Source: Microbotryomycetes sp. JL201 (taxonomy: Eukaryota; Basidiomycota; Microbotryomycetes). Taken from it: DNA of 55,317 nt. Where the stretch lies: the NCBI GenBank assembly GCA_033819885.1, contig JAQYUZ010000067.1, positions 1 to 55,317 of the forward strand, written 5' to 3'. Position numbers and translations under genes: made by a program. A model generated the notes under the pieces. It made no database searches. It saw nothing but the letters and a program-made list of their open reading frames with translations, and was not told the origin of the DNA. This document shows, piece by piece, positions 2,449 to 54,439 of the stretch (its first letter is position 1; every line of letters begins with the position of its first letter).

Positions 2449-5400
2449 ATGCCGGACGATCTGTACGATGAAAAGGCAGTGAGCGCCGACAGCCACTCGA
2501 GTCCGCTCTCACAGTCGTCCGCAAAGGGCGAAGCAGACATGAAGCGTGTAGAATCACTCGATGACGGCAAGGACGACCGCGTGTACGCCCTCGATCACGC
2601 GCAGCAGCAGAAAGTCGACTCGGAGCCACAAGGCGAGCAACATGATGTCGCAGCACAGCAGGCGCCTGACCGAGATGACGAGGAGGAACACCATGACAAG
2701 GGCACACGCCACGGCACTCATCGCTACCTGCCAATCGTCAGCGGGCTGCTCGTTCCGTTCTCGGTCTTGCTTGATGTATGCTGCCCGAACGCTCACACTG
2801 CCTTACCACACGAGGCTGACATTGTCCCGGCGTCACCAGATTCCAGGACTGACCGAGAGGTGGTACCAGCGTACGGTAGGTTACAAGGTCGTCGAGACGA
2901 AACCCAATCCTCCGCGTGAGTGGCGATCGCGTTCGGGGACCAGTCGGCGAATTGACGGTACACTTCCAGTGCTCGACGTCGGACAGGCAGTGTCCATGTT
3001 CTTTGGCGTTGCTGCGAATGCGGCGCTAGTGATGCGCTTTCTTGAGAAACGGCCGTACCAGATGACCTGGGTGGCGATTGCCTCGCTCACGCTGCATGGT
3101 AAGAGCAAGCACAACAAGCGACATAAAAAATCTTATTCCTTTAGCATTACAGACATTCTCCAGCTCGTCATTGTCCTCACATTCGGCATCATTCACAGCG
3201 TCAACGACGGTTTCGTGAGTTCCATCAACCCGGGCCAGTCAGTCTGGATATTCAAGGCTTATAAGCGAGACTGCAGACATATGGAACCGCCTACTGGATG
3301 ACGGTTGCCTCGACAGCTGCGTCTCTGACCGTCAACGTCACGCTTGTGGTTGACCTCGTCCGGACTCCGGACTTTCGAAGCAAAGGTCAGCCACGTCTTC
3401 CAAGGCCCGAGAAGCACATCTCGCACTGACGCGACCGAGACACACAGGATCAGGCCTCACTGAGAAGCAGCGCTCGCTCGTGATTGCCGTCATGTCCCTT
3501 CTCGTTTACATCGGTCTCGGCTCGCTTTGCTACACGTTCTTGATCGACCCTCACCTCAGTTACATCGACAGCATGTATTTCACCATCACAACGATCGAGA
3601 CTGTCGGCTTTGGCGACATCACACCCAACACGCTGCAAGCTCGAATCGTTGCATTTTTTTACAACACGGTCGGCATCATCATGCTCGGTTTCACCGTCGC
3701 GATCGCCCGCGAGACTATTATTGAAACTTTCGAAGCGTCGTACCGTGCTCGGCGGGACGCGTTGGCAGTAAAGGCTCGAGAACGCAAGGAAGAGCGACGC
3801 AAACGGTTGCGAGAGCGCCACGAGCGGAGAGAGAAAGAATTACGCAGTCGGCTTATTGCCGAGGGCGTACAAGACGTCGACGCCGAAGTTGAAGCACTCA
3901 AACAAAGCGGAATGTTTGATAAGCATGCACTAGCTGAAGCGAATCGGAACGTCAAACAGCCGGAAGGGGATGCTTTACCGTCTCCCGTTGCGTGCAGCAA
4001 TGTCCAAGTCATGCAGGCCGCTAATCGAGTCGCTCAAGCTCGTCGAGAGCTCGATTTCTTCGAGGAACGTCGCGAGGGGCTTGGGCCTGTACGCTCGGCT
4101 TGGAGATGGCTTCTACGCAGCGTCGGCCTGCTCAAGACCTTTGATCCGCTCGATCGCGAAGCACGCAGGCTCGGAACAAGCCAGGAAGACGAACTTGAAG
4201 GCCGGCAGTTGACACGCACAGCGACCATGAGTTCGATCATGAGCGGGGCGTCGCACGAGGAGCAATTCAAGTCGTTCAAGAAGCAAATTCAAGCGGAGCA
4301 GGTGCATAACTTTTCGCATAGGTCGACTAAGTTTGCTGACTGATGTCGCATATTGGTCCAGAGGAAAGAGTTTCAGCTCAAGTTGACGATTGCATTGGCT
4401 TTGTTCTTTGTGTTTTGGCTCGTCGGTGCCGCCGTCTTCTCGGCAACGGAGAATTGGACCTACTTCGAGGCTTTATACTTCTGCTACATTTTCTTCTCAA
4501 GTGAGCCTGAGCTGTTTTCGCCGATTCTGGTTATGCTGACCGCTTTTCTGCAGCTATCGGGTAAGTAAAAGCTCAGCTTGGCGCACGAACGATACTTACA
4601 CGCCAACCTGATTAGCTACGGCGACTATTCTCCGAAGTCGGCGTGAGTTGAGCGGCGACTTGACTTCTTACCCATTGCTGACACTCCTAGCGCAGTGGCG
4701 GCCGCGCTTTTTTTATCGCATGGTCGCTCCTTTCCGTGTCTGTCATGACCTTGCTCTTGTCCGTTGTCACAGAAACCTGGTCCTCGCGATATCGATCGAC
4801 TATTGCCGACGGCAGCAACCGCAAGCTCTTGAAACGCGGCAAACAAGCGCGATCCCAAACTGCCGACGCTGCCATCGCCAAACTGCTCGCAACTGAAGGT
4901 TACAGCGCTCAAGCCGAAAGGATCAATGCTAAAGATTTGCCTGGCAAATTGATCGACGCGCTCAAAGGATTTCACGATCACGCGAGGTTCTTTATGCTCG
5001 GTCGAACTGGTGATCCACCTGAACGTTTCCGCAATCTCGTTGACGGCTTGTCCGAAGTCGAGAACGCTTTGAACTCGCTCGCGGACGAATCTGAAGCAGG
5101 GATACAAGGCGACACGAAACACTTTTTGTTCATGTTGTCGTACGAGCGACAATTTGATGTCTTGATGGACGCAGCGGAACAGGTCGGCAAGGTCTTTCAA
5201 GCGCACCAAGACGAATTGGAAAAGATGAGACGGCTGAACGCAGAACTGAAAGAAGCACTGAGCGAGCGTAGCGAGAGTCTGAAAAAGAAGGCCACGGACG
5301 GCGGTGGGGGTATTTTTGTGAAGCGACCGGCTGGCGGTTACGAAGACGAGCAGAACGAAGAGGAGCTCGAACAAGAGCTTGACGAGCCTGACACGGAGGA

Positions 5401-11762: not shown

Positions 11763-13115
11763 ATGCCGCTCGAACAGCTGTCGTCGAGTGCGACGTTCGG
11801 GGGCAAAATTGTCAAGTACAAGCATGCCTCGAGCCAGTCTCTGGGCGGATTGGCCGCCCAATTCAATGTGTTTTTGCCAAAAGAGAGCAACAGCGGGCCG
11901 GTGCCGTCAGTCACAGCCACCGCCACAGCATACACAGGCCGAGGCACTGAGAAGTTTGCCTTTGCAGTGTCCTGTACTACCTCGCTGGCCTGACATGCAA
12001 CGAGGACACGGCGTGAGCATTGCATTCCTGACTTCGCTCGAGCTCGGCTAAACGAATTCGACGACGACGGAACTTGACAGGGCGTGGAAAGGTGGATTCA
12101 TCAGGGACGCAGCAGAGCATGGTCAGCCTCGCTATCTTGCCATCTAACCTGTACGTAAACTGACCCGGCCCACGAAAATCCCAGGCATTGCGCTCGTGTT
12201 TCCGGACACTTCACCTCGGGGCGCCGGCATCGAGGGCGAGGACGACGACTGGGACTTTGGCACTGGCGCAGGCTTCTACGTCAACGCGACAGCAGACAAG
12301 TACAAAAAGCACTACAACATGTGAGCACGAGTCCTTGCCGAATTGCCTCTCACTTTCTGACATCAAGGATCGACTGGCTGCAGGGCAAGCTGACGTGATG
12401 AACCGCCGTATATAAAGCACTCATCATTGCGTCATATTCAGTACGACTTTGTCGTCAGCGAGTTGCCGGGCCTGCTGTCAGAGCTCCCGATCGATTCTTC
12501 AAGAGCGTCCATCTTCGGTGCGTCGCGTTTGCACGATTCCCACAAAGTCGCCGTCTGACTCAAAGGTTCTCAGGACACTCTATGGGTGGCCACGGCGCCT
12601 TGATGATCTACCTCAAGAACCTTGACAAGTACAAATCAGCCTCTGGCTTTGCTCCTATCGCCAACCCTACCCATGCACCTTGGGGAGACAAGGCATTCAA
12701 AGGTTATTTGAGCGGTGGAGTCGAGGAAGGAAAGCAATACGACGCCACGGAGCTGATTCGACAGGCAAAGGGCAAGAACGTCAACATTATGGTTGACGTC
12801 GGCACGGGTGACCAATTCTACCAGCAGAAGCAGCGTGAGTGACGAGTTTGTTCGACAATCTGCAGCTATAGCTGATATATCTGGCGGCCGCGATCAGTCT
12901 TGCCCGAGAACTTTATCGCAGCCAGGGACGAGGCCGGATTTTCAGACTCGCAAGTCAAGGTCAATTTGCACGAGAACTACGATCACTCGTATTATTTCAT
13001 TTCGACGTTTGCGCCTGGTGCGTCACACTTGTACCTCGTTCTATCCTGATACGCAGCTGATTAATTCCGGCTGACAGCACACGTCAAGTACCACGCAAAG
13101 TTCCTCAAGGCGTAA
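11763..13115 (+). CDS. S-formylglutathione hydrolase (esterase D family)
   Basis: This hydrolyses S-formylglutathione to formate and glutathione in the cytosol, the last step of glutathione-dependent formaldehyde oxidation. It is an alpha/beta hydrolase with the nucleophile elbow GHSMGGHGA, the conserved [13 protein letters not shown] segment, the [10 protein letters not shown] loop, and the late DHSYYF histidine region. Exons are 11763-11905, 11968-12012, 12081-12121, 12185-12320, 12442-12517, 12574-12834, 12898-13017 and 13078-13115. All junctions are in phase except the 121-bp gap 12321-12441, where one extra base (G) is required to read YNMYDF. A single-nucleotide exon at 12384 would supply it (see findings). 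The expected product is 286 aa, normal for the family. Neighbouring GFA genes act on the same glutathione-formaldehyde chemistry. Confidence 0.92.
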
Positions 13116-13233: not shown

Positions 13234-14001
13234 AGAAGCGGCAAATAGGGCTCCTCCCTCGCCGATCAACCGACCCGAAACAAACCATCGCGCCACAAAA
13301 CCCAACGAAACGGGGACGACAGCTATTGCAAAGACAGAGCTTGCCTTGCTGACCGATCTTGGCGTAAAAGAATTCCTAGGCCGGAATTCGGGCATTGGCA
13401 GTTGGTTCGAGACGAGTAAAGGTCGAGATTTTACAAACGGACACAGTTGGTGTGGTGTGCTCTCAGATTGGTTCAATATGCTGTACGCTGACCTTGTATG
13501 TATTGTCAGGATATCCCTATGACGCGAGTCGGGATGATTGCCTTCGTGAAGCTGAAGACGGATACTTGGTGTTCTGAAGGACTCCCTACCACTGTTTACG
13601 CCCGCTGTCAAGCGCATGATGTCAAACTATGGCAACGACTATGTAAAAGCAATGACGGTGTTTGATGGTCTCGAAGCTCGCTTTTTTATTTCACCGCTGG
13701 ACATGCTCAGGACAGAGACAAATTATCAAAAAGAGGCGGAAAGGTCGGATAAAAGAAATTTCGTGTTCATTGGAGACGGATTTGCGGAGGAATGGGTAAA
13801 GACGCCTGGCAGTGTCGACATTGTCAAGCAGAGCGTGAGCGTTGGCGCATTCAAGGCGGAAGAAAGCAGCACTGACGACGACTTTAGTTTCAGCAAATGT
13901 TTGGTAAAGCCACAGAGGACAAGAATGACGTTATTTTGGATCTCGAGTGGGAACTGACGGGACGGAGGAACGAAAAGCTTACTTTCGAGGTCTGTCGATA
14001 A
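13234..14001 (+). pseudogene. Double-psi-barrel (expansin/RlpA-like) gene, 5'-deleted copy
   Basis: Left copy of the barrel gene that is complete at 15234-16369. The barrel region is intact: LLTDLGVKEFL, GIGSWFET, WCGYPYD, GLEARFF, then IGDGFAEEWVKTPGS. It ends MFGKATEDKNDV and LTGRRNEK before the stop at 13999-14001. Exons about 13234-13452, 13510-13523, 13580-13834 and 13894-14001 keep their splice sites, including a GC-AG intron at 13524-13579 shared with the other copy. What is missing is the start codon, the cytosolic basic stretch, the membrane anchor and the stalk, all removed by a ~370-bp deletion. No in-frame ATG precedes the body. It is therefore probably non-functional unless transcribed from a new upstream start. 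The rest of the frame is undamaged, which suggests recent loss or repair by its sister copy. Confidence 0.75.
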
Positions 14002-14021
14002 CCTTTCATTGTTGTACGCAG

Positions 14022-14613
14022 TCACTCTGGCATCTTTTGAACTTGATCGGCACCGGGAATTGAGCCCAGTCCGGACCACCTGTCCTTGACGAACAACTCG
14101 CTCGCAAATTTCAACTTGTCGGAACCATCGAGCCAGCCGGTCTGCAGGGCAAAGCTGTCTCCGAACGAAGACATCTTGTGGTATAGAGCGCATCCGCAGT
14201 TGCCACAAAAGCCACGAGTCACTGTTCGTCCCGAATCTCAGCGATAGGAGTGGCGAACCAGCCACGGCACATGTGCATACGCACCAGTAGCACCAGAGGC
14301 AGCCGCAGACTGATACTCTTTGATCGGACCGTCAAACTTGGCGTCGTCGAACTTGACCAAAAAATTGGTCGAGAATGCAGAACCAGACGTGCGTTGACAG
14401 TCAGTGCCTGCAAGTGCGAGTCAGCTGCAAAGATAAAAGGTCATAAAGGATCATGTACAGTGGCACGCAATCTGGGCGTCGTGGTCAGAAGAAACTTTGA
14501 CAGTTGACTGTCCGCACAAGCACGATCCTATGGCCGTAGGGTGCGTCAGCTCGCTGTTTCCAACTGTAAGATTGGCATTGCAAGGGGTGTATTGACATAC
14601 CAGTGTGAGGCAT
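14022..14613 (-). CDS. GFA-family glutathione-dependent formaldehyde-activating enzyme, copy A
   Basis: A small zinc protein of the GFA/CENP-V fold. This family is named for speeding the condensation of formaldehyde with glutathione, although that activity is debated for several members. Four exons join in frame: 14613-14601, 14527-14459, 14407-14285 and 14221-14022. The start is MPHTGSCLCG, reached after a 13-nt first exon. Metal ligands are visible as CLCG, then HCTDC, then CGNCGC. The end is IPGADQVQKMPE. The stop lies 20 bp from the stop of the facing barrel gene, so the pair is tail to tail. A second copy lies at 16390-16981. Proximity to S-formylglutathione hydrolase supports a role in formaldehyde handling. 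Confidence 0.85.
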
Positions 14614-15233: not shown

Positions 15234-16369
15234 ATGTCGCATTATCGCAGCGTACTCAATGCGTCAGACGAATCTGACCACTCGAATCGTCTCGTTCAAA
15301 GACGAAGAACGAAGCATTTGCGTAAACGACGGCAAAGTTTTGGCGTTGTCGTCGTAGTCGCGGTCGTGCTCATCGTCGTCTTGACCTTGATTGCACTGGC
15401 TTTCCTCTCAGGCAACACTTTTGGTCTGACTGACGAGTTGGAGACGAACAGCACGTTGGACAAGGCGGAGGCATTGGATGCGGCTTCAGCTTCGAGTACA
15501 AGCGCGAAGCAAAAGGATGTCGTCACCACATTGAGTAAATTGCCAGCAAATGACGCTCCGACTCATCCAACGACCGCTCAAGTGCAAGAAACGGCGAATA
15601 GGGCTCCTCCCTCGCCGATCAACCGACCCGAAACAAACCATCGCTCCACAAAACCCAACGAAACGGGGACGACAGCTATTGCAAAGACAGAGCTTGCCTT
15701 GCTGACCGATCTTGGCGTAAAAGAATTCCTAGGCCGGAATTCGGGCATTGGCAGTTGGTTCGAGACGAATAACGGTCGAGATTTTACAAACGGAAACAGC
15801 TGGTGTGGTGTGTTGACAGGGTCATGAGCTTCGAGCTGCACGTTTGCGCGCTGACCTTTGAAAACCTGACAGGATGTCCCTACGACGCGAGTCCACCTCA
15901 CGTCCTTTCCGAAGTGGAAATATTGAGACCTAAGCTTTCTGCAGGATTCACTGCCGCTTTTCGCTCCGGCTGTCAAGCGCATGCTTTTAAATTTTGACAA
16001 CGATTACAGGAAAGCAGCGATGGCATATTGCGGTCTCGAAGCTCGATTCTTCGTTTCGCCGAACGGACATGTTCAGGACAAGGATAAATCGTCAGAAGAG
16101 AGGCGAAAGGGCAGGACAAGAGAGGTCTTGTTGTTCATTGGAGACGGATTTGCAGAGGAATGGGTCAAGACGCCTGGCAGTGTCGACATTGTCAAGCAGA
16201 GCGTGAGCGTTGGCGCATTCAAGGCGGAAGAAAGCAGCACTGACGACGACTTTAGTTTCAGCAAATGTTTGGTAAAGCCACAGAGGACAAGAATGACGTT
16301 ATTCTGGATCTCGAGTGGGAACTGACGGGACGGAGGAACGAAAAGTTTACTTTCGAGGTCTGTCGATAA
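15234..16369 (+). CDS. Membrane-anchored double-psi-beta-barrel (expansin/RlpA-like) protein
   Basis: Exons 15234-15807, 15873-15886, 15945-16202 and 16262-16369 join to 317 aa. The N-terminus is basic (RRRTKHLRKRRQS), followed by one hydrophobic helix (FGVVVVVAVVLIVVLTLIAL) and a low-complexity stalk. This is a type II anchor that would place the barrel outside or in the secretory lumen. The barrel carries GIGSWFET, WCGCPYD, YCGLEARFF, IGDGFAEEWVKTPGS and LTGRRNEK, matching the RlpA-like/expansin-related proteins common in basidiomycetes. The second intron, 15887-15944, is GC-AG (GCGAGT donor) and gives the family segment PYDDSLPLFAP. Such proteins are thought to bind cell-wall polysaccharide. 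No enzymatic activity can be read from the sequence. An upstream ATG at 15129 is in frame but lies in duplicated spacer, so 15234 is preferred. Confidence 0.75.
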
Positions 16370-16389
16370 CCTTTCATTGTTGTACGCAA

Positions 16390-16981
16390 TCACTCTGGCA
16401 TCTTTTGAACTTGATCGGCACCGGGAATCGATCCCAGTCCGGACCACCTGTCTTTGACGAACAACTCGCTCGCAAATTTCAACTTGTCGGAACCATCGAG
16501 CCAGCCGGTCTGCAGGGCAAAACTGTCTCCGAACGTAGGCGTCTTGTGATAGAGAGCACATCCACAGTTGCCACAGAAGCCACGGGTCACTGTGTGTCTT
16601 GAGTATCAGCGATGGGTGGCGACAGACCGCTGGCGGCGCACACGAACACGCACCAGTGGCGCCCGAGGCAGCTTTCGACTGATACTCTTTGATCGGGCCA
16701 TCAAACTTTGCGTCGTCGAGCTTGACGAGAAAGTTGGTTGAGAACGCAGAGCCAGACGTGCGTTGGCAATCAGTACCTGCAATGGCCATTCAGCTGACAA
16801 GACAGCGGAGGATGCAGAATCACATACAATGGCACGCGATATGGGCGTCATGGTCAGTCGAGACTTTGACAGTCGACTGTCCGCACAAGCATGATCCTGT
16901 GACAGAAGATGCCGTGAGCTTGGTGCACCTGATTACAAGAGTGGTGCTGCGAGGAGGAATGGGCATACCGGTATGTGGCAT
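16390..16981 (-). CDS. GFA-family glutathione-dependent formaldehyde-activating enzyme, copy B
   Basis: Tandem paralogue of the gene at 14022-14613, with the same four-exon structure. It has a 13-nt first exon (16981-16969, MPHTG), then SCLCGQSTVKV, HCTDCQRTSGSAF, CGNCGCALYHK and the identical C-terminus IPGADQVQKMPE. Zinc ligands are conserved, so both copies look active. The final exon is nearly identical to copy A over its first 140 bp, while earlier exons and introns differ by 10-20%. That pattern fits gene conversion. It faces the intact barrel gene across 20 bp. The upstream open frame to 17158 is 5' flank, because the spliced start MPHTG has the family N-terminus. Confidence 0.85.
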
Positions 16982-20500: not shown

Positions 20501-21648
20501 TCGGTCTTGAAGGGCAAACTCCCCAGTCAAAGTCGGAAGGCGAGCCGCGACGGGTTTTCATTGAAGTCCGAGACACTGGACCAGGGATTCCTGCCAGACA
20601 GCTGGAGTCGTTGTATCGCCAGCTTGAAGAAGTTGACTCGGACGAGAATGACGAGCAAGAAGATTTGTCGATCGGTCTCGGTTTGGCCCTCGCGGCAAGG
20701 ACGGTCCGTGTGCTCGGTGGCCAGTTGAAACTCGAATCCGCGCCCGATGTCGGAACGACAGCGACAGTTTTTGTGCCATTGGTCGAGCCGACTGAACCAG
20801 GATTCCCGCCCTCGACAGCTTTGTGGCAAGAGCCCTTCAAATCGAGAAAGGCGCAGCGCAAGCTCTCTACCGTACGGTCAAACCCGCCGAGCCCTCCACA
20901 CCTTTCCGAAAGTGAGGCCGCTGCGGCTGCTCTTCCTGCGCCATCTCCTGCGCCACCTCCTGCGCCATCGTCTGCTTCTCATTCGTCTCCGGATGCGCAA
21001 CTGAGCCCTATGCTGTTCAAAGTCAAGGCGGAAAGGAGTCTTTCTGGTTCACACGCGACTCATGCGACGCCTACCCGATCTCAGACTCCAGTGCTTAACC
21101 GAAGTGTGTCCTTGCCCGTCTCAGCCGATCGCCTGCCATCTGTCGTAGTTCCTCCGATGCGCATTCTCGTCGTTGAAGTGAGCTCTTTACTCTTCTCGCA
21201 GCGAGATTTCCGCTGACGATCGTACCAGGACGATCCACTTTGCCGTCAAATCTTGGTCAAACGCCTCGAGCGAGACAGTCACGAAGTCTTCACGGCACAC
21301 CACGGTCTCGAGGCACTCGACATCATCGAGGATCACGATTTCGATATCGTTCTTATGGACATTCAGATGCCAGTTATGGACGGCCTTGAGGCGATCCGAC
21401 ACATCAGACATCGCGAGACGATGATGGCGTACAGCGATTCTCCAAGCAAGCACATGAACGGCCGGCTCCCCGTTTTGGCAGTTTCTGCGCACGTCGAGCA
21501 AGGCTGGAAAGACGTGTTGATGAAGAATGGATTTGACGGTCATGCGGACAAGCCTGTAGACGTGGGAAGGCTTCGCGTCATTTTGGCTGGAGTGCTAGAC
21601 GCTCAAATCAGGCACGATAATTTGCATCGGCGAGTTGGCCTCAGGTGA
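17558..21648 (+). CDS. Fungal phytochrome, hybrid histidine kinase
   Basis: A red/far-red light sensor of the fungal phytochrome class: PAS, GAF, PHY, histidine kinase and response regulator in one chain. Seven exons (17558-18064, 18121-18216, 18274-18786, 18843-19693, 19749-19972, 20030-21177, 21229-21648) join to 1252 aa. A ~140-residue Pro/Ser-rich N-terminus precedes the bilin-site segment CQDEPIHTPGAIQSYG; its cysteine is the expected biliverdin attachment site in this class. GAF has DIPAQARELY. PHY has VHWAGNPHYK and the tongue region. The kinase has the H-box SHEARTPLN, the N-box DNAIK, DTGPGIP and GLGLALA. The receiver has LMDIQMPVMDG with the phospho-Asp, and a conserved Lys in DKPV. 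Intron 18787-18842 has a GC donor (GCAAGT). The intron 19694-19748 was chosen by phase and conservation. All catalytic motifs are present, so it should be functional. Confidence 0.93.
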
Positions 21649-25581: not shown

Positions 25582-27408
25582 ATGTCGACGGAAGCTGCAG
25601 CCGACGCACGCAAGCGCAAATGGGATGAGCCTGGAGCAGCTCCAAGTGCCGATGGCGCAAGTGGTGATGGTGCAGCTGCGCCTGCTGCCAAGCAGCAAAA
25701 GACCGACGGCGCCGCCGAGCTCGAAGGCGGCCAGGACGCGCTCGACGCTGCGGGTGAGCGTGTCGATGAAACTATTCAGTTGCAAATTGCTGAAAGTGCC
25801 CACCTCGATCGCAGCCCAAGTCGCCGCTAGGCTGAGCGCCCAATATGCTCCAAAGGCCGCATCGGGCGGCGTGTACGTAAAGGACCAGCGCGAAGCGAGC
25901 GACCCGGAGTAAGCTCAACCTGCTACATAGGCGCTTAGCGTTGGTTTCGGCCGCTGAATCCTGCGGGTCCCGTGCGTCCTCCCGCCAGGTTCGTCAAAGA
26001 CATTGAAATCAACGACATGCGCAACCGTTACGTCTTGACAAAAGGATCTACGCAGCAACAGGTTGGTCTCATGGCCCTGGGTCTTTCGCCACTACACGCA
26101 CGACACATCCGCTGACAGTCCCCAATTCAGATCTTGGCCGACACAGGAGCCAACGTGCAATCCAAAGGCTTGTGGTACCCCGACAAGTCGATGGCTACCG
26201 ATAAAGACCCTCCGCTGTATTTGCACATCACCGCCGTGCGCTTTTTCTATGCCAGCAGATACCTGAAACTCTTGCCTCCACGCTCACTCCCTCGCTCATG
26301 CAGGACACGGCCGAAAAACTGCAAAAAGGTGTCGAGGCAGTCGAAAAACTGATCGAGCAAGAGCTCGGTCCCTTGTTGGACGAGCGTCGATTCAGGCGGC
26401 GCGAAGACGAGCCGCGCGAAAAGCGCAAGTGGCTCGAGGAAAAAATTCCGATCGACGTCGAGCCCCTTCGCAACTTTAACGTGCGAGCCAAGGTCGTCGG
26501 TCCTGGTGGACTGTTTGTCAAATTCATTCAGCAAGAGACGGGCACACGAGTGCAGATCAAAGGAACTGGCTCTGGCTTTATCGAGACGGAGACTGGCAGA
26601 GAGTCTGAGGACCCAATGCACATCCACGTCGCGTGAGTGACCAATCACTTTATCACGCTACACACCGGGGCTGACACGTTCCGCAAACGCACTAGTGGTC
26701 CAGACGAGGCCATGGTAGAACGTGCCGTCGAGCTAGGCAAGGATTTGCTTACAGTAGTCAAGGAAGAGCATGCAAAGGCGCGTGCCGTGCTTGAACAGCA
26801 ATGGGCTGCGCAGCAGCAGGGCTATCAGCCACAGCAGCCTCCGTACGGCGGTCAACAAGGCTATGGCGGCCAGCAACAACCATACCAGGGCGGCTACCAG
26901 GTAGGCACACGTCATGTAGTGCGATACACTCACATGTAGCTGACGCTAGTCCACACAGCAATCGCCTTATGGCGCCGGCGTCACTGCTCCGTTGCCGCAA
27001 GGAGAAGCGCCTCCACCGCCTCCTCCATCGGGTGATGCACCGCCCGGACCCCCAGCCGACCCCTCGCAGCCTGGAGGTCAACAGGCGTCTGCGGAACAAT
27101 GGGCTGCGTACTGGAACTCGCTCGACCCGGCATCACAGGCGTACTATACACAGTGCGCTGATTGACTATCCACCAGCCACAATTCAGAAAGCTGAATTGC
27201 TTCCCACAGGTACTATGCTGCCTACCAGCAAGGTGGGTACAGTGGATCTCCTGCTACACAGGGCCAAACACCTCAACCGCCGCAAGGAGGCAGTGCGCCG
27301 CCACCGCCACCACCCAGTTCAGCGCCACCACCACCGCCTCCTCAAGGTGACGAGCAGAAAGGTGGCAGCGGTAGATTTGGTGCTGTGCCTCCTCCTCCGG
27401 GCTTGTAG
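25582..27408 (+). CDS. KH-domain RNA-binding protein, KHDC4/BLOM7-like
   Basis: Two KH-type modules arranged as in KHDC4 (BLOM7), a splicing-linked RNA-binding protein, so a nuclear role in pre-mRNA processing is likely. The N-terminus (MSTEAAADARKRKWDEPG) is basic. The first module spans FVKDIEIND, LTKGSTQQQI and PPLYLHITA. The second contains NFNVRAKVVGPGG (the GxxG loop), FVKFIQQETGTRVQIKG and GSGFIETETGRES. The C-terminal ~150 residues are Gln/Gly/Tyr- and proline-rich, with WAAYWNSLDP and YYAAYQQGGY repeats and a final PPPPGL. Exon boundaries include 25582-25753, 25815-25908, 25989-26061, 26131-26235, 26304-26632, 26696-26900 and from 26959. A last intron follows AYYT, and the CDS ends at 27408. 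All checked junctions are in phase. Confidence 0.82.
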
Positions 27409-41005: not shown

Positions 41006-42262
41006 ATGCAAGATTTGTTCTCGGTCAAAGGCAAGCGAGTACTCGTGTCTGGAGGCGGCAGCGGCATCGGTCGCATGGTCAGTCACGCTCACACTCGCCT
41101 CAAGGCTGAACGCTATCGCGAACGGACGCTGAACGTCTACGCAGATCTCGGAAGGCTATGTCAGAGCTGGAGCAAAGGTGTACATCACGTCGCGCGACGC
41201 AAACAAGCTCAAGCAGTGCGCAGACGAGCTCAACAAGATTGGCCCGGGCGAATGCGTCGCTATGCCGGCAAACTTGGCAGACTATGACGCGATTGTCAAC
41301 CTGGTCAAGGAGCTTGAGAAGAGAGAGAAATGTGAGGGGCAGGCGATAGCGCTGCAGGTCCACGTTCGAGTGGCGAGCGCCCGCTGAATTTTGACTCGAA
41401 AATTGCAGGCTTTCACGTGCTTGTCAACAACGCTGGTCAGCTCCACAGCAAGCATTCGCTCCTGCCATTGCTCTGACACCGTTCCTCTCTTCCCAGGCAA
41501 CAACTGGGGTCAAGAATACTCCGAGTTTCCCGACGCCGCTTGGGACAGGGTGCTTGGCTTGAACGTCAAGCGCGTATTCACATTGACGCAAAAAATGACT
41601 CCGCTCTTGCTCGCATCGCTCGGACCGAACGCCAAGGAAGACGGACCTTGGGAAGACCCGGGTAAGTCCACGTTCAACCCTCACGCCACGTTTGAAAAGG
41701 CCTCATTTTCGTCATTCTCAGCCCGCGTCATCATGATTGGCTCAGTCGATGGTATTCGAGTACCGTCACTCGAGACTTACAGCTATTCGGCCAGCAAAGC
41801 CGCTCTCCATCAAATGTCGCGAGTTCTGGCAAAGAAGCTCGGATACCAGGGCATCACGGTTAACACGCTTGCATGCGGTTAGTCTCTGGGCAAACAGCAT
41901 AGCAGAAGCAGTTCTGAGCTGATCTATTTATCGCCACCAGGTCCATTCCAATCCAAGAGCAAGCACAGACGGCTTTGTCACGCTTTGGTTCACATTCTGA
42001 CTGCCAATCTCCTACAGTGATGGCGGCTACGCTTGAAGCTGCAGGCGATGCTATTGTCGCCAATGTGCCTCTCGGGCGCATCGGCTCGCTAGAAGATGTC
42101 GCAGGCGCGTGCATCTTTCTCAGTTCAAAAGCAGGACAATGGGTCAATGGGTGCGCATAACGATACCATCAGGGTGCTCTGACTCTGTAACTGACGAGCC
42201 TTCCATGGCGCAGCACGATCATCCCGCTGGACGGTGGTTCTCTTGTCGGCGGTAAATTGTAG
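41006..42262 (+). CDS. Short-chain dehydrogenase/reductase
   Basis: A classical NAD(P)-dependent SDR. The start MQDLFSVKGKRVLVSG leads into the Rossmann GGGSGIGR motif. VYITSRDANKL marks the second strand, and the Arg there suggests NADP preference. LVNNAG is the structural motif after strand 4. The catalytic Ser lies in IMIGSVDGI, and Tyr-x-x-x-Lys in YSYSASKAA. The C-terminal part has PLGRIGSLEDVAGACIFL and ends TIIPLDGGSLVGGKL. About eight exons are used, with introns near 41076, 41334, 41435, 41661 and 41878, plus two later ones. The pattern resembles the 3-ketoacyl-ACP reductase / RhlG-like SDRs. The substrate cannot be told. The start ATG was chosen because it gives the usual spacing to GxxxGIG. 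Confidence 0.85.
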
Positions 42263-47072: not shown

Positions 47073-48920
47073 ATGTCCTCGCTCAAAGGAGAACCGACGG
47101 TCGACCCTATCTCCACTACATCGCTGCAAGGTTTCAATGGTGGGCTGAGACCTCTACCTTGGTCAAAGTGGAACACGAAAGAGTTCTGGCTGGGAGATTA
47201 TGTGAGCGAGCTTGGCGCTCAGTCCACGTCTGATTCCCTGAAGTACTAACGATGTGCTTGTCCAGGACTATGCGATGCTCTTCATGCCTTACATTCCCAA
47301 AGTCACCTCTGAGAAATACAAGAATCGAGAAATGCCATTCTTCAGTGCCAATGAGCCTCTGCCAATCCTCTTGATGCTCTTGTTGAGCGTCCAACACTGC
47401 CTCGCAATGCTAGGCGGCTTGGTCACCCCGCCTCTATTGTGAGTTGAGACGTGTTGCCGATCCATCATTATCTGACTCTACTTTTGCCCGGTTAAAGGCT
47501 CGGTGGCGCCGGCGGAGCTGCTTTGGCGCCCGCTCAGCAAGCATACCTCATCTCTGCTTCCCTCATCATCTGTGGCTTGAGCACTGCTCTTCAGGTTTCA
47601 AGCATCAAGCTTCCGTTTGGCTACCGCCTCGGTTCTGGAGTTTTGACAGTAACGGGAACGTCTTTCGCCTTTATCGGATCATCTCTTGGCTACATCAACT
47701 CGCAATACGCAGAAGGTGGCATCTGTCAGCTTGACGCCAGCGGCAACAAGCTGCCGTGCGAGGCGGCTCTCGGCGCCGTTCTCGGTTCCGCCACCGTCGT
47801 TGGCATCATTGCCATCTTCATGTCTTTCACCCCTGCCAAGATCATCCGAAAGCTGTTCCCACCCATGGTCACCGGCGCAATCATGACTTTGATCGGCTGC
47901 AGTCTGATCAGTTCGGGCATCACCAATTGGGCCGGCGGAAGCGGGCCTTGCGCATCAGACTTTACAAAGGCATGTGTTAAAGGCGCTACATGGGGATCTG
48001 CCCGCTTGATCGGTCTCGGATTCCTCGTATTCGCATCAATTGTCGTCTTTGACTTGTTCGGCCCTCCGATGGTGCGCAACTGCTCCGTCTTCCTCGGACT
48101 GGTCCTCGGCATGATCGTTGCTGCCGGTACTGGCTACTTTAATGGCGCCGCTATCGACCGAGCACCGGTGATCACATTCAACTGGGTCCACCGCTTTCCT
48201 TTATCGGTCAAAGGCGACCTGGTTTTGCCTTTCCTCGCCTCGTTCATTGTCGTCTTGTCTGAGACGGTCGGCAACGTCACCGCCACATGCTCGGTGTCTG
48301 GCCTGCCAATCACCGGTGAAGACTTTTCAAAGCGCATCCAGGGCGGAATGCTCGCGGACACGTTGTTCGCATGCTTGGCCGGCCTCGCAACCGTCAGCCC
48401 CCTTACTACATTCTCGCAAAACATCGGCGTCATCGGCTTTACTCGCAATGGCTCGCGGTGGTCAGGCTACGGCTGCGCCTTGCTGCTTGTTCTCGCCGGC
48501 ATTTTTGGCAAAGTCGGCAGTCTTTTCGTCGCCATGCCTCCATCTGTTTTGGGCGGCTTGACGACTTTCTTGTTTGGTTCGGTTGCCATTACTGGTATCC
48601 GATTGCTCGCCATGGGTTGCTGCGTCACCTTGCCCCGGCCGATGGCAACGGAACACGGTCATAGGACATTTGCAGCTCAGCATGACGATGGCAAACGACC
48701 GGGCACGCGTATGATGGCGACCACACGGGCGCTGCTGTTTGTGTCTGCGGGGTTGACTGCGGCCATTGCTCAAGGCGAACCCTTTGCGCGCATCGGGATC
48801 CAGCGAGCTCTGAACGAGCTAGAAGCAATTCAAGAGCTGCCCGAGGTGCGGTCTTGGTCGTCTGTAAGCCTTGACTGTCAGGCCCGCGAGCCAGCAAAGT
48901 CGGCTCATCCTTTCACGTGA
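47073..48920 (+). CDS. Uric acid/xanthine-type permease, C-terminally truncated
   Basis: A nucleobase/ascorbate transporter (NAT/NCS2), closest in pattern to fungal UapA/UapC proteins. Exon 1 is 47073-47201 and exon 2 ends near 47440. Helix 1 has PILLMLLLSVQHCLAMLGGLVTPPLLLGG. Family motifs: QHCLAM, SETVGNVTATCSVSG (expected substrate-binding acidic residue), SPLTTFSQNIGVIGFTRNGSR (the NAT signature region) and MPPSVLGGLTTFLFGSVAITGIRLLA. Similarity stops at about 48611. The last two helices and the C-terminal tail of the family, ~110 residues starting with a DWTRRNRF-like stretch, are absent. The frame stays open without a stop to 48920 and runs in phase into the first exon of the next gene. 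It is either a truncated or fused gene, or an assembly join (see findings). Confidence 0.75.
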
Positions 48921-52717: not shown

Positions 52718-54439
52718 ATGCTCTTGCGCTCCCGTGCAGCTTGCCACCTCTCTGCTCGCACACTCACTCGCCGATCCCTGTCGACGTACACGTCATCTGC
52801 CCGTCCTCGTCAATCCACGTTTGCTTGTGCGAGCGCGTTTGCGATTGCCGCCGCCGCTCCATCGCTTGACCGCCCGTTGTCGACTTCATCAAGCTCAAGC
52901 TTCACTCTCAACTCGTCCAGAATGGCACCCATCGTTGCCAACGGCGAAGCTGCCGCAGAACTCAAGACTGGGTACATCAGCCATCCGCACCAAGTTCTGC
53001 ACGCCACAAACTGACCTTGCACGCGCCCGCACCAACAGATCAAATGTCCACAAGGTCGTCGTGATTGGCTCTGGTCCTGCAGGTCCGTCATCTCGACGCA
53101 GTCGCTGTGACCGGCTCGATTCCTGACAAATCAACGCCCTTTTCTCTCACCACTTCGTCACGCAATCAATCGAAACGCTTTCACTCGGACCACAGGTCAC
53201 ACTGCATGCATTTACCTTGCTCGTGCCGCCCTGGAGCCCATCATGTACGAGGTGAGCTTGGTTCGAGCCGTTTTGAGCGGGTGGCGAGCCGACGAAACGA
53301 TACTGACGATGACACATACACAGGGCATGCTTGCTAATGGCACGGCCGCGGGGGGCCAGCTGACCACCACAACAGGTTTCGTCCATTCCGGCGTCTTTGG
53401 GCGTGTAGAGACTGACTTTGGCTGTTTTCCGCCACTCTGCAGACGTCGAGAACTTGTGAGCGTCCTTGGGCCGGCCTGTCGATGTCCGCAGCACTAACAC
53501 AAGTTTGAATAGCCCTGGATTTCCTGAAGGTATTCGCGGACCCGAGATGATGGACTTGTTCCGTGCACAATCGGCTCGCTTCGGCACCGACATTCGCACC
53601 GAGACAATCTCGAAAGTTGGTAAGTGCGACCCGTCCAGCACCAGTATAAACAGCTTACACATGATATGTAGACCTGTCCTCACGTCCATTCAAGCTCTGG
53701 CGGGAAGGTGCCGAGCAAGAAGAGCCTGAACTCGCTCAAACGCTTATCATTGCTACCGGTGCCAGCGCCAGGCGTATGCACTTGCCTGGCGAGGAGACGT
53801 ACTGGCAGTCTGGTATTTCGGCTTGCGCCGTTTGCGATGGTGCCGTGCCAATCTTCAGGAAAAAGCCGCTCGCCGTTGTCGGCGGTGGCGACTCGGCTTG
53901 TGAAGAGGCAATCTATCTGACAAAGGTGTGTCTTGTCCACTACAATTGCCGAATTGTGTGGACTGACATGAAGTTGCGCAACGTTGGTCTAGTATGCCTC
54001 GCACGTTTATGTCCTCGTCCGTCGCGACGTCCTCCGCGCCTCCAAGGTCATGGCCAAGCGGTTGACCTCACATCCGAAAGTCACGGTGCTCTGGAACACG
54101 GTGCCCACCGAGGCAAAGGGCGACGGCGACCTTTTACAAGCTTTGACCATCGAGTCGACCAAGACGGGCGAAAAGTCAGAGCTTCAAGTGAACGGTCTGT
54201 TTTACGCCATTGGTCATGTTCCTGCTACGTCTCTCGTCCGCGGTCAACTCGAGACGGACGAAGATGGTTACATCATCACCGAGCCTGGAACTTCAGTCAC
54301 CTCAGTCAAGGGTGTGTTTGCTGCCGGTGACGTCCAAGATAAAAAGTACAGGCAGGCCATCACATCTGCCGGTTCAGGTTGCATTGCAGCTCTCGAAGCA
54401 GAGCGATTGTTGGCAGAGGAGGAAGAAATGCAAGAATGA
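52718..54439 (+). CDS. TRR1: Thioredoxin reductase (low-Mr, fungal type)
   Basis: An FAD/NADPH enzyme that reduces thioredoxin. The N-terminal extension ([20 protein letters not shown]) is a likely mitochondrial leader. An in-frame [10 protein letters not shown] at 52922 could start a cytosolic form. The FAD motif is [13 protein letters not shown], followed by [13 protein letters not shown] and [19 protein letters not shown]. The redox-active pair is in [12 protein letters not shown]. The NADPH motif is [12 protein letters not shown]. The end has [16 protein letters not shown], typical of the family. Exons are separated by short introns. Those around DVENF are 53378-53445 and about 53459-53512, and a broken copy of them lies 1.2 kb downstream. 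All catalytic motifs are present. Confidence 0.9.

Follow-up and report, generated by a model that had tools for sequence, protein, structure and literature searches.

Exons of a single nucleotide mark the lower limit of spliceosomal exon size. In plants, they have been described in APC11 of Arabidopsis (Guo and Liu, 2015; PMC4674806) and in VPS55 (PMC8831610). In the portions of these papers available to us, RNA-seq with RT-PCR was used for both genes, and APC11 was also tested with mutant GFP constructs and cDNA sequencing, in which the mRNA followed the alteration of the base. One-base exons are lost when reads are mapped plainly (PMC8831610). In fungi, the CYP621A P450 genes of Fusarium have a one-base exon that, in the available part of the report, its authors regard as the first in a fungal gene (Nelson and Syed, 2026; PMC12940212); they propose base loss and rescue as its origin. 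Titles and the beginnings of abstracts returned under the wordings we searched indicated no further nuclear genes with a one-base exon. With so few examples published (APC11, VPS55, and CYP621A in the literature covered), each new one in a new gene helps in judging whether such exons are freaks or have simply been overlooked.

Three related systems are also relevant, again from partial texts. In the spliceosomal twin introns (stwintrons) of fungi, a single gap contains two U2-type introns in succession, which are spliced out in two steps. The P450 genes of Phanerochaete chrysosporium have many short exons and introns, but the shortest exon is 6 bp (PMC1184071). A one-bp exon occurs in placozoan cox1, yet this gene is mitochondrial rather than nuclear and spliceosomal (PMC5436844).

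The window analyzed here is a contig of 55,317 nucleotides (C64) from a genome of 92 contigs and 17,152,241 bases that is fungal going by its gene content. On the plus strand at 11763-13115 it contains a gene for S-formylglutathione hydrolase (SFGH), the last enzyme of formaldehyde detoxification and a conserved housekeeping enzyme. The gene very probably contains a one-base exon, and its parts are as follows.

11763-11905, 11968-12012, 12081-12121, and 12185-12320, plus strand: SFGH exons 1 to 4, placed by splicing and translation and by the TIGR02821 score
12321-12383, plus strand: predicted intron 4a, 63 bp, GTGAGC...CTGAC...GCTGCAG
12384, plus strand: putative single-nucleotide exon G, the third base of ATG (Met122), placed by frame, family fit, and signal controls
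12385-12441, plus strand: predicted intron 4b, 57 bp, GC-AG, GCAAGC...CTCAT...TTCAG
12442-12517, 12574-12834, 12898-13017, and 13078-13115, plus strand: SFGH exons 6 to 9, placed by splicing and translation, with the stop codon TAA at 13113-13115

As far as the available text of Nelson and Syed (2026; PMC12940212) goes, this locus is most like CYP621A. In both, the gene is fungal, the base is a G in a conserved motif, the exon was detected because the reading frame failed, and the gap exceeds double the normal length of an intron (139 nt in CYP621A and 121 in SFGH). The two differ in that CYP621A has the core AGGGT with a GT donor, whereas the second intron of SFGH is of the GC-AG type, and in that the base occupies the second position of a Gly codon in CYP621A and the third position of a Met codon in SFGH. 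CYP621A also has 20 orthologues and splicing backed by 18 SRA reads, whereas the SFGH case is known from the DNA of one genome. APC11 and VPS55 resemble SFGH in that the frame depends on the base and annotation overlooked it, but they are plant genes and, in the parts of the papers available, the APC11 base of Arabidopsis lies 333 nt past the upstream junction (PMC4674806; PMC8831610). The two consecutive introns within one gap recall a stwintron. We dropped this classification because the internal intron of a stwintron lies within a splice element belonging to the external intron, as far as the accessible descriptions go, whereas introns 4a and 4b both have complete ends with one base left between them. 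One-base exons are thus already known as a kind, and among the matches listed in a search on introns of fungal SFGH genes no title pointed to such a structure. New to us are its occurrence in an SFGH gene, the GC-AG partner intron, and the presence of a 2-nt exon elsewhere in the genome. The single case is modestly new, and the novelty would be larger if a genome-wide richness in ultra-short exons holds.

The gap at 12321-12441 is 121 bp long and its outer ends are usable as splice sites. However, removal of the whole gap as one intron leaves a coding sequence of 860 nt that is frameshifted and runs into stops. With G12384 retained, the coding sequence is 861 nt, the frame is restored, and the protein has 286 amino acids. 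The AT that terminates exon 4 at 12320, the G, and the TAC that follows encode the M-Y conserved in the family, which is present at this place in all seven relatives read (5 of the 14 PDB matches listed, and two prokaryote loci, the two relatives found in a scan of prokaryote genomes). The model that includes G12384 scores 334.3 bits against TIGR02821 (cut-off 281.7), with residues 5-283 of 286 covered, making it a full-length member of this equivalog family, and solved SFGH structures align with it end to end (3fcx, E 1.8e-91). The remaining six introns are 62, 68, 63, 56, 63, and 60 bp long and their phases are all consistent.

These results agree with an earlier sequence-only reading of this DNA, according to which every other SFGH junction is in phase, a gap of 121 bp compared with 56-68 bp for the other introns needs exactly one G to keep the frame, and the gap divides into a 63-bp GT-AG intron, G12384, and a 57-bp GC-AG intron. 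The coordinates, lengths, and motifs were all recovered as described. The interpretation as a single-nucleotide exon is also supported, since this is the only parse that we found to keep MYDFVV with ordinary splice sites and intron lengths.

The signals on the two sides of the base differ in strength. The CTGAC of intron 4a places the branch A 23 nt upstream of the intron end, and relative to 56 stricter predicted introns its donor is at the 75th and its acceptor at the 86th percentile. The branch site and acceptor of intron 4b are weaker, at the 6th and 9th percentiles, and its donor is at the 32nd percentile in a model that over-counts GC donors. G12384 lies between a complete AG acceptor and a complete GC donor (CAG/G/GCAAGC, 12381-12390) and is required for the conserved frame. 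Intron 4b has the features of a GC-AG intron, with the donor GCAAGC (of the form GCAAGY) and a CAG end. From these data it is highly likely that the SFGH pre-mRNA carries two short introns around a one-base exon, by far the best reading of the locus.

We also considered whether repetition or duplication could have produced the anomaly. The DNA at 12180-12640 matches only itself, with no second copy in the genome, and because of this the gap is not a recent decayed duplicate. The other SFGH-family locus returned by a family search of the genome is one distant esterase (C56:468190-468408, 24.7 bits). A recent duplication was dropped as the source on these grounds. A repeated intron family, or introner, was likewise dropped because 12180-12640 is unique and introns 4a and 4b are unlike each other (local score 11 versus a shuffled mean of 11.8).

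As long as the outer sites stay fixed, a single two-intron parse keeps the frame, namely 12321-12383, G12384, and 12385-12441. When the outer sites were allowed to move, two parses exceeded the score floors, one with the 1-nt exon (25.3) and one with a 27-nt micro-exon (18.1). Among parses with a single intron, ten preserve the frame, and of these 12321-12458 has the best score. The sequence-only reading had stated that the gap contains no further frame-keeping micro-exon; this stands for fixed outer sites but fails if the acceptor moves to 12458, and two weaker in-frame rivals had been overlooked.

12321-12458, plus strand: rival single intron of 138 bp that drops MYDFVVS, chosen by our gene finder when exons below 12 nt are barred
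12368-12394, plus strand: rival 27-nt micro-exon, possible only with a first intron of 47 bp and with GTGATG as donor

The alternative that survives best is a sequencing or assembly error in which one G was lost at the edge of an ordinary 121-bp intron and the inner AG-G-GC is due to chance. If the real genome reads ATG/GTGAGC or CAG/GTAC, a single intron restores the frame. A single intron of this length is feasible on branch-site grounds because a CTGAC lies 48 nt upstream of 12441, comparable to intron 2 of SFGH, where the best CTGAC is 49 nt from the end. Intron length is a weak part of the argument for a split gap. Our gene finder, a small program self-trained on the window and 200 kb of contig C56 (255 kb in total), predicted 543 introns with a median of 63 nt and 80% within 50-80 nt, but 45 of these are at least 115 nt long (including the 138-bp call at the SFGH gap), so that long introns are not rare in the predictions. 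In the C56 aldolase gene described below, for example, introns include ones of 127, 165, and 172 nt. The 23 predicted introns inside Pfam-supported domains have a median of 64 nt and a range of 52-113 nt, one of them being a miscalled thioredoxin reductase GC intron (called as 88 nt, really 67 nt).

What counts against a missing base is the interior of the gap, and controls on the interior score bear directly on this alternative because it needs a right-looking interior to arise by chance. The internal acceptor-branch-donor score of SFGH was reached by 0 of 5,520 noncoding 121-nt windows, which overlap one another and were drawn from both strands, and by 0 of 5,000 dinucleotide shuffles. Because self-training had inflated GC donors to approximately 10%, the window control was repeated with rarer GC donors. 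At GC-donor frequencies of 2% or 1%, 2 or 5 of the 5,520 windows reached the score, with one in each case having G as the base. Some 1-nt decomposition exists for 23 of the 63 other predicted introns of at least 95 nt, but none of the 63 equals the SFGH score. Together, the window controls put the chance of an interior this good at no more than about 1 in 1,000. Additionally, the lost base would make a mere GG pair and not a long run. We therefore regard a lost base as unlikely.

A still smaller probability is assigned to the possibility that the real intron is the 138-bp one at 12321-12458, giving a protein that reads KKHYN-IELPGLL. This intron is in frame and its product exceeds the TIGR02821 cut-off (311.1 versus 281.7). 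However, it loses the M-Y of all seven relatives read together with 23 bits of family score, and within 45 nt it offers no better branch site than a CTCAT at a distance of 35 nt. A single 120-nt intron with non-canonical GT-CA or TG-AG ends, shifted by one base from the normal edge, would also yield the right mRNA, but it is needless given that ordinary sites explain the mRNA, and we think it more doubtful again. To our knowledge, neither GT-CA nor TG-AG ends form an established class of introns. The 27-nt micro-exon with the outer acceptor at 12458 is the least credible of all, for although it is in frame, retains the Met, and scores 323.0 bits, it falls 7 units under the parse with the 1-nt exon, adds three residues to the protein relative to the 1-nt model, and needs, besides the GTGATG donor, a first intron shorter than the shortest (52 bp) of the 23 domain-supported predictions.

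The gene finder called the 1-nt exon when the price on such exons was −3 or −5 and dropped it at the strictest price of −7. It is imperfect, and its SFGH prediction extended into the next gene, to 14186. With tiny exons barred, it put in place an in-frame SFGH model that we take to be wrong and that is still above the family cut-off. Annotation pipelines would probably make the same substitution, and would presumably raise no alarm because all three models, with the 1-nt exon, the 27-nt exon, or the 138-bp intron, exceed that cut-off.

How G12384 is spliced, which intron leaves first, and what becomes of transcripts that skip the base are inferred from the DNA. At 63 and 57 nt, introns 4a and 4b have ordinary lengths for this genome and each could be recognized by intron definition. 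Because the acceptor of 4a and the donor of 4b are one base apart, they could hardly be occupied jointly, and successive removal of the two introns is probable. This would take two rounds of splicing in either order. If 4a were removed first, the second donor would become AUG/GCAAGC; if 4b were removed first, CAG/GUACGAC would remain. Both orders would join AT, G, and TAC to give Met122-Tyr, and the mature mRNA would carry AACATGTACGAC, which is incompatible with both the 138-bp intron and the 27-nt micro-exon. Skipping of the G would join 12320 to 12442, and inclusion of G12384 is probably necessary for a working enzyme because skipping shifts the frame and leads to a stop approximately 35 codons later. 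The U1 protein PRP-40/PRPF40A is apparently needed for micro-exons in C. elegans and in mouse cells, as indicated in the available parts of the reports. In this genome, C7:112439-112616 (plus strand) is probably a U1 snRNA gene going by its sequence, with the 5' end ATACTTACCT / ATACTTACCTTG, but its score of 31.1 bits is below the Rfam gathering cut-off of 69.5. An Rfam search of the window at gathering thresholds gave no match.

We then asked how SFGH compares with other genes of this fungus. At a price of −3, the gene finder called five exons shorter than 12 nt in the 255 kb (1, 2, 6, 7, and 9 nt), and all five fit protein families. Tiny-exon calls on C56 and C64 that required a price of 0 (3 additional calls) or a bonus of 1.5 (15 beyond those at −3) were left out of this count. 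These exons other than that of SFGH, together with further short exons, including some in a 50-kb stretch of contig C7, are listed here; coordinates without a contig name are those of the window.

C56:142874-142875, plus strand: 2-nt exon GC of a class II fructose-bisphosphate aldolase gene, CAG/GC/GTGAGT, restoring P-A-GVVTG
C56:143154-143165, plus strand: 12-nt exon FAIP of the same aldolase gene
C56:143338-143343, plus strand: 6-nt exon GCTTTC of the same aldolase gene
4554-4560, plus strand: 7-nt exon CTATCGG of a two-pore-domain potassium-channel-like gene, in the second pore with the selectivity filter TIGYGD
C56:89849-89857, plus strand: 9-nt exon VKF of a ubiquitin-conjugating E2-like gene, with no gaps around it against 1z2u
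53443-53455, plus strand: 13-nt exon of a thioredoxin reductase gene (TTTT-DVENF-PGFP), found by hand and gap-free there against 5w4c and 3itj
41941-41958, plus strand: 18-nt exon of a short-chain dehydrogenase gene, found by hand, with no gap across it against 2b4q
C7 stretch, 26672-26686 (numbered along the reverse complement), minus strand: 15-nt exon of a Zn2Cys6 regulator gene, Zn_clus above cut-off
C7 stretch, 47806-47820, plus strand: 15-nt exon of a second Zn2Cys6 regulator gene, Zn_clus above cut-off

The 2-nt exon of the aldolase gene is flanked by introns of 71 and 93 bp, and its parse scores 25.3 compared with at most 22.6 for rivals. Its internal score is 16.1, and the best 2-nt decomposition among the 63 long introns scores 11.4. 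Against TIGR01520, the model with this exon scores 575.5 bits versus 564.2 for an in-frame single-intron rival, and the model with the 2-nt and 6-nt exons aligns ungapped with 7rgn from residue 8 onward. In the potassium-channel-like gene, the exons around the 7-nt exon are 4362-4500, 4554-4560, and 4616-4642, and the Ion_trans_2 score is 60.1 bits for a model halting at STIG compared with 102.5 bits when it continues through the 7-nt and later exons.

GC-AG introns were claimed by the sequence-only reading to occur elsewhere in the window, and homology supports this for one intron. The intron at 41959-42017, directly after the 18-nt exon, is of this type, with a donor (GCAAGC) identical to that of intron 4b. 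By contrast, a GC intron (GCCAGC) predicted by our gene finder in the thioredoxin reductase gene was wrong; the real donor of this intron, which precedes the 13-nt exon, is an unusual GTTTCG at 53376. The best PDB match of this protein is 5w4c, from Cryptococcus, and going by this match the fungus is probably a basidiomycete. On C7, the two 15-nt exons occupy the same position in the zinc cluster (CK-RRK[IV]K-CDR) and one of them precedes a GC-AG intron with the donor GCAAGT. A CTGAC branch site upstream and a weaker one downstream is the pattern in the SFGH, aldolase 2-nt, channel, and thioredoxin reductase cases; because the pattern is mixed in the remaining short-exon cases, we draw no inference from it.

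No family-supported exon of 1-2 nt was found in the 50 kb of C7. The 1-nt candidates there, 38437 (at price 0 or with a bonus) and 38497 (with a bonus only), lack family support and were dropped. An 11-nt exon (LPGWF region) of an SH3-like gene, minus strand 21330-21340 along the reverse complement of the C7 stretch, was called at price −3; it is a prediction and is left out of the family-supported count.

In 305 kb (1.8% of 17.15 Mb), family-supported exons thus include those of 1 nt (SFGH), 2, 12, and 6 nt (aldolase), and 7, 9, and 13 nt. Because other ultra-short exons with family support occur in the genome, this fungus seems able to handle them. The 250 kb outside the window contained one exon of 1-2 nt, which would correspond to about 70 in the genome (Poisson range roughly 2-380). 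It is about an even bet that exons of 1-12 nt, including those of 1-2 nt, are ordinary here and occur in conserved proteins of tens to hundreds of genes. If they are ordinary in this fungus, ordinary gene prediction would misread genes across the genome. Having exons of 1 and 2 nt within 305 kb, a fungal genome as small as this would lend itself to work on the splicing and origin of such exons.

Beside the SFGH gene, the predicted genes at 13249-14186 and 15234-16917 share long near-identical stretches, such as PPSPINRPETNH and SVDIVKQSQMFGKATEDKNDVILDLEWELTGRRNEK. Judged by this similarity, the pair is a nearby duplication.
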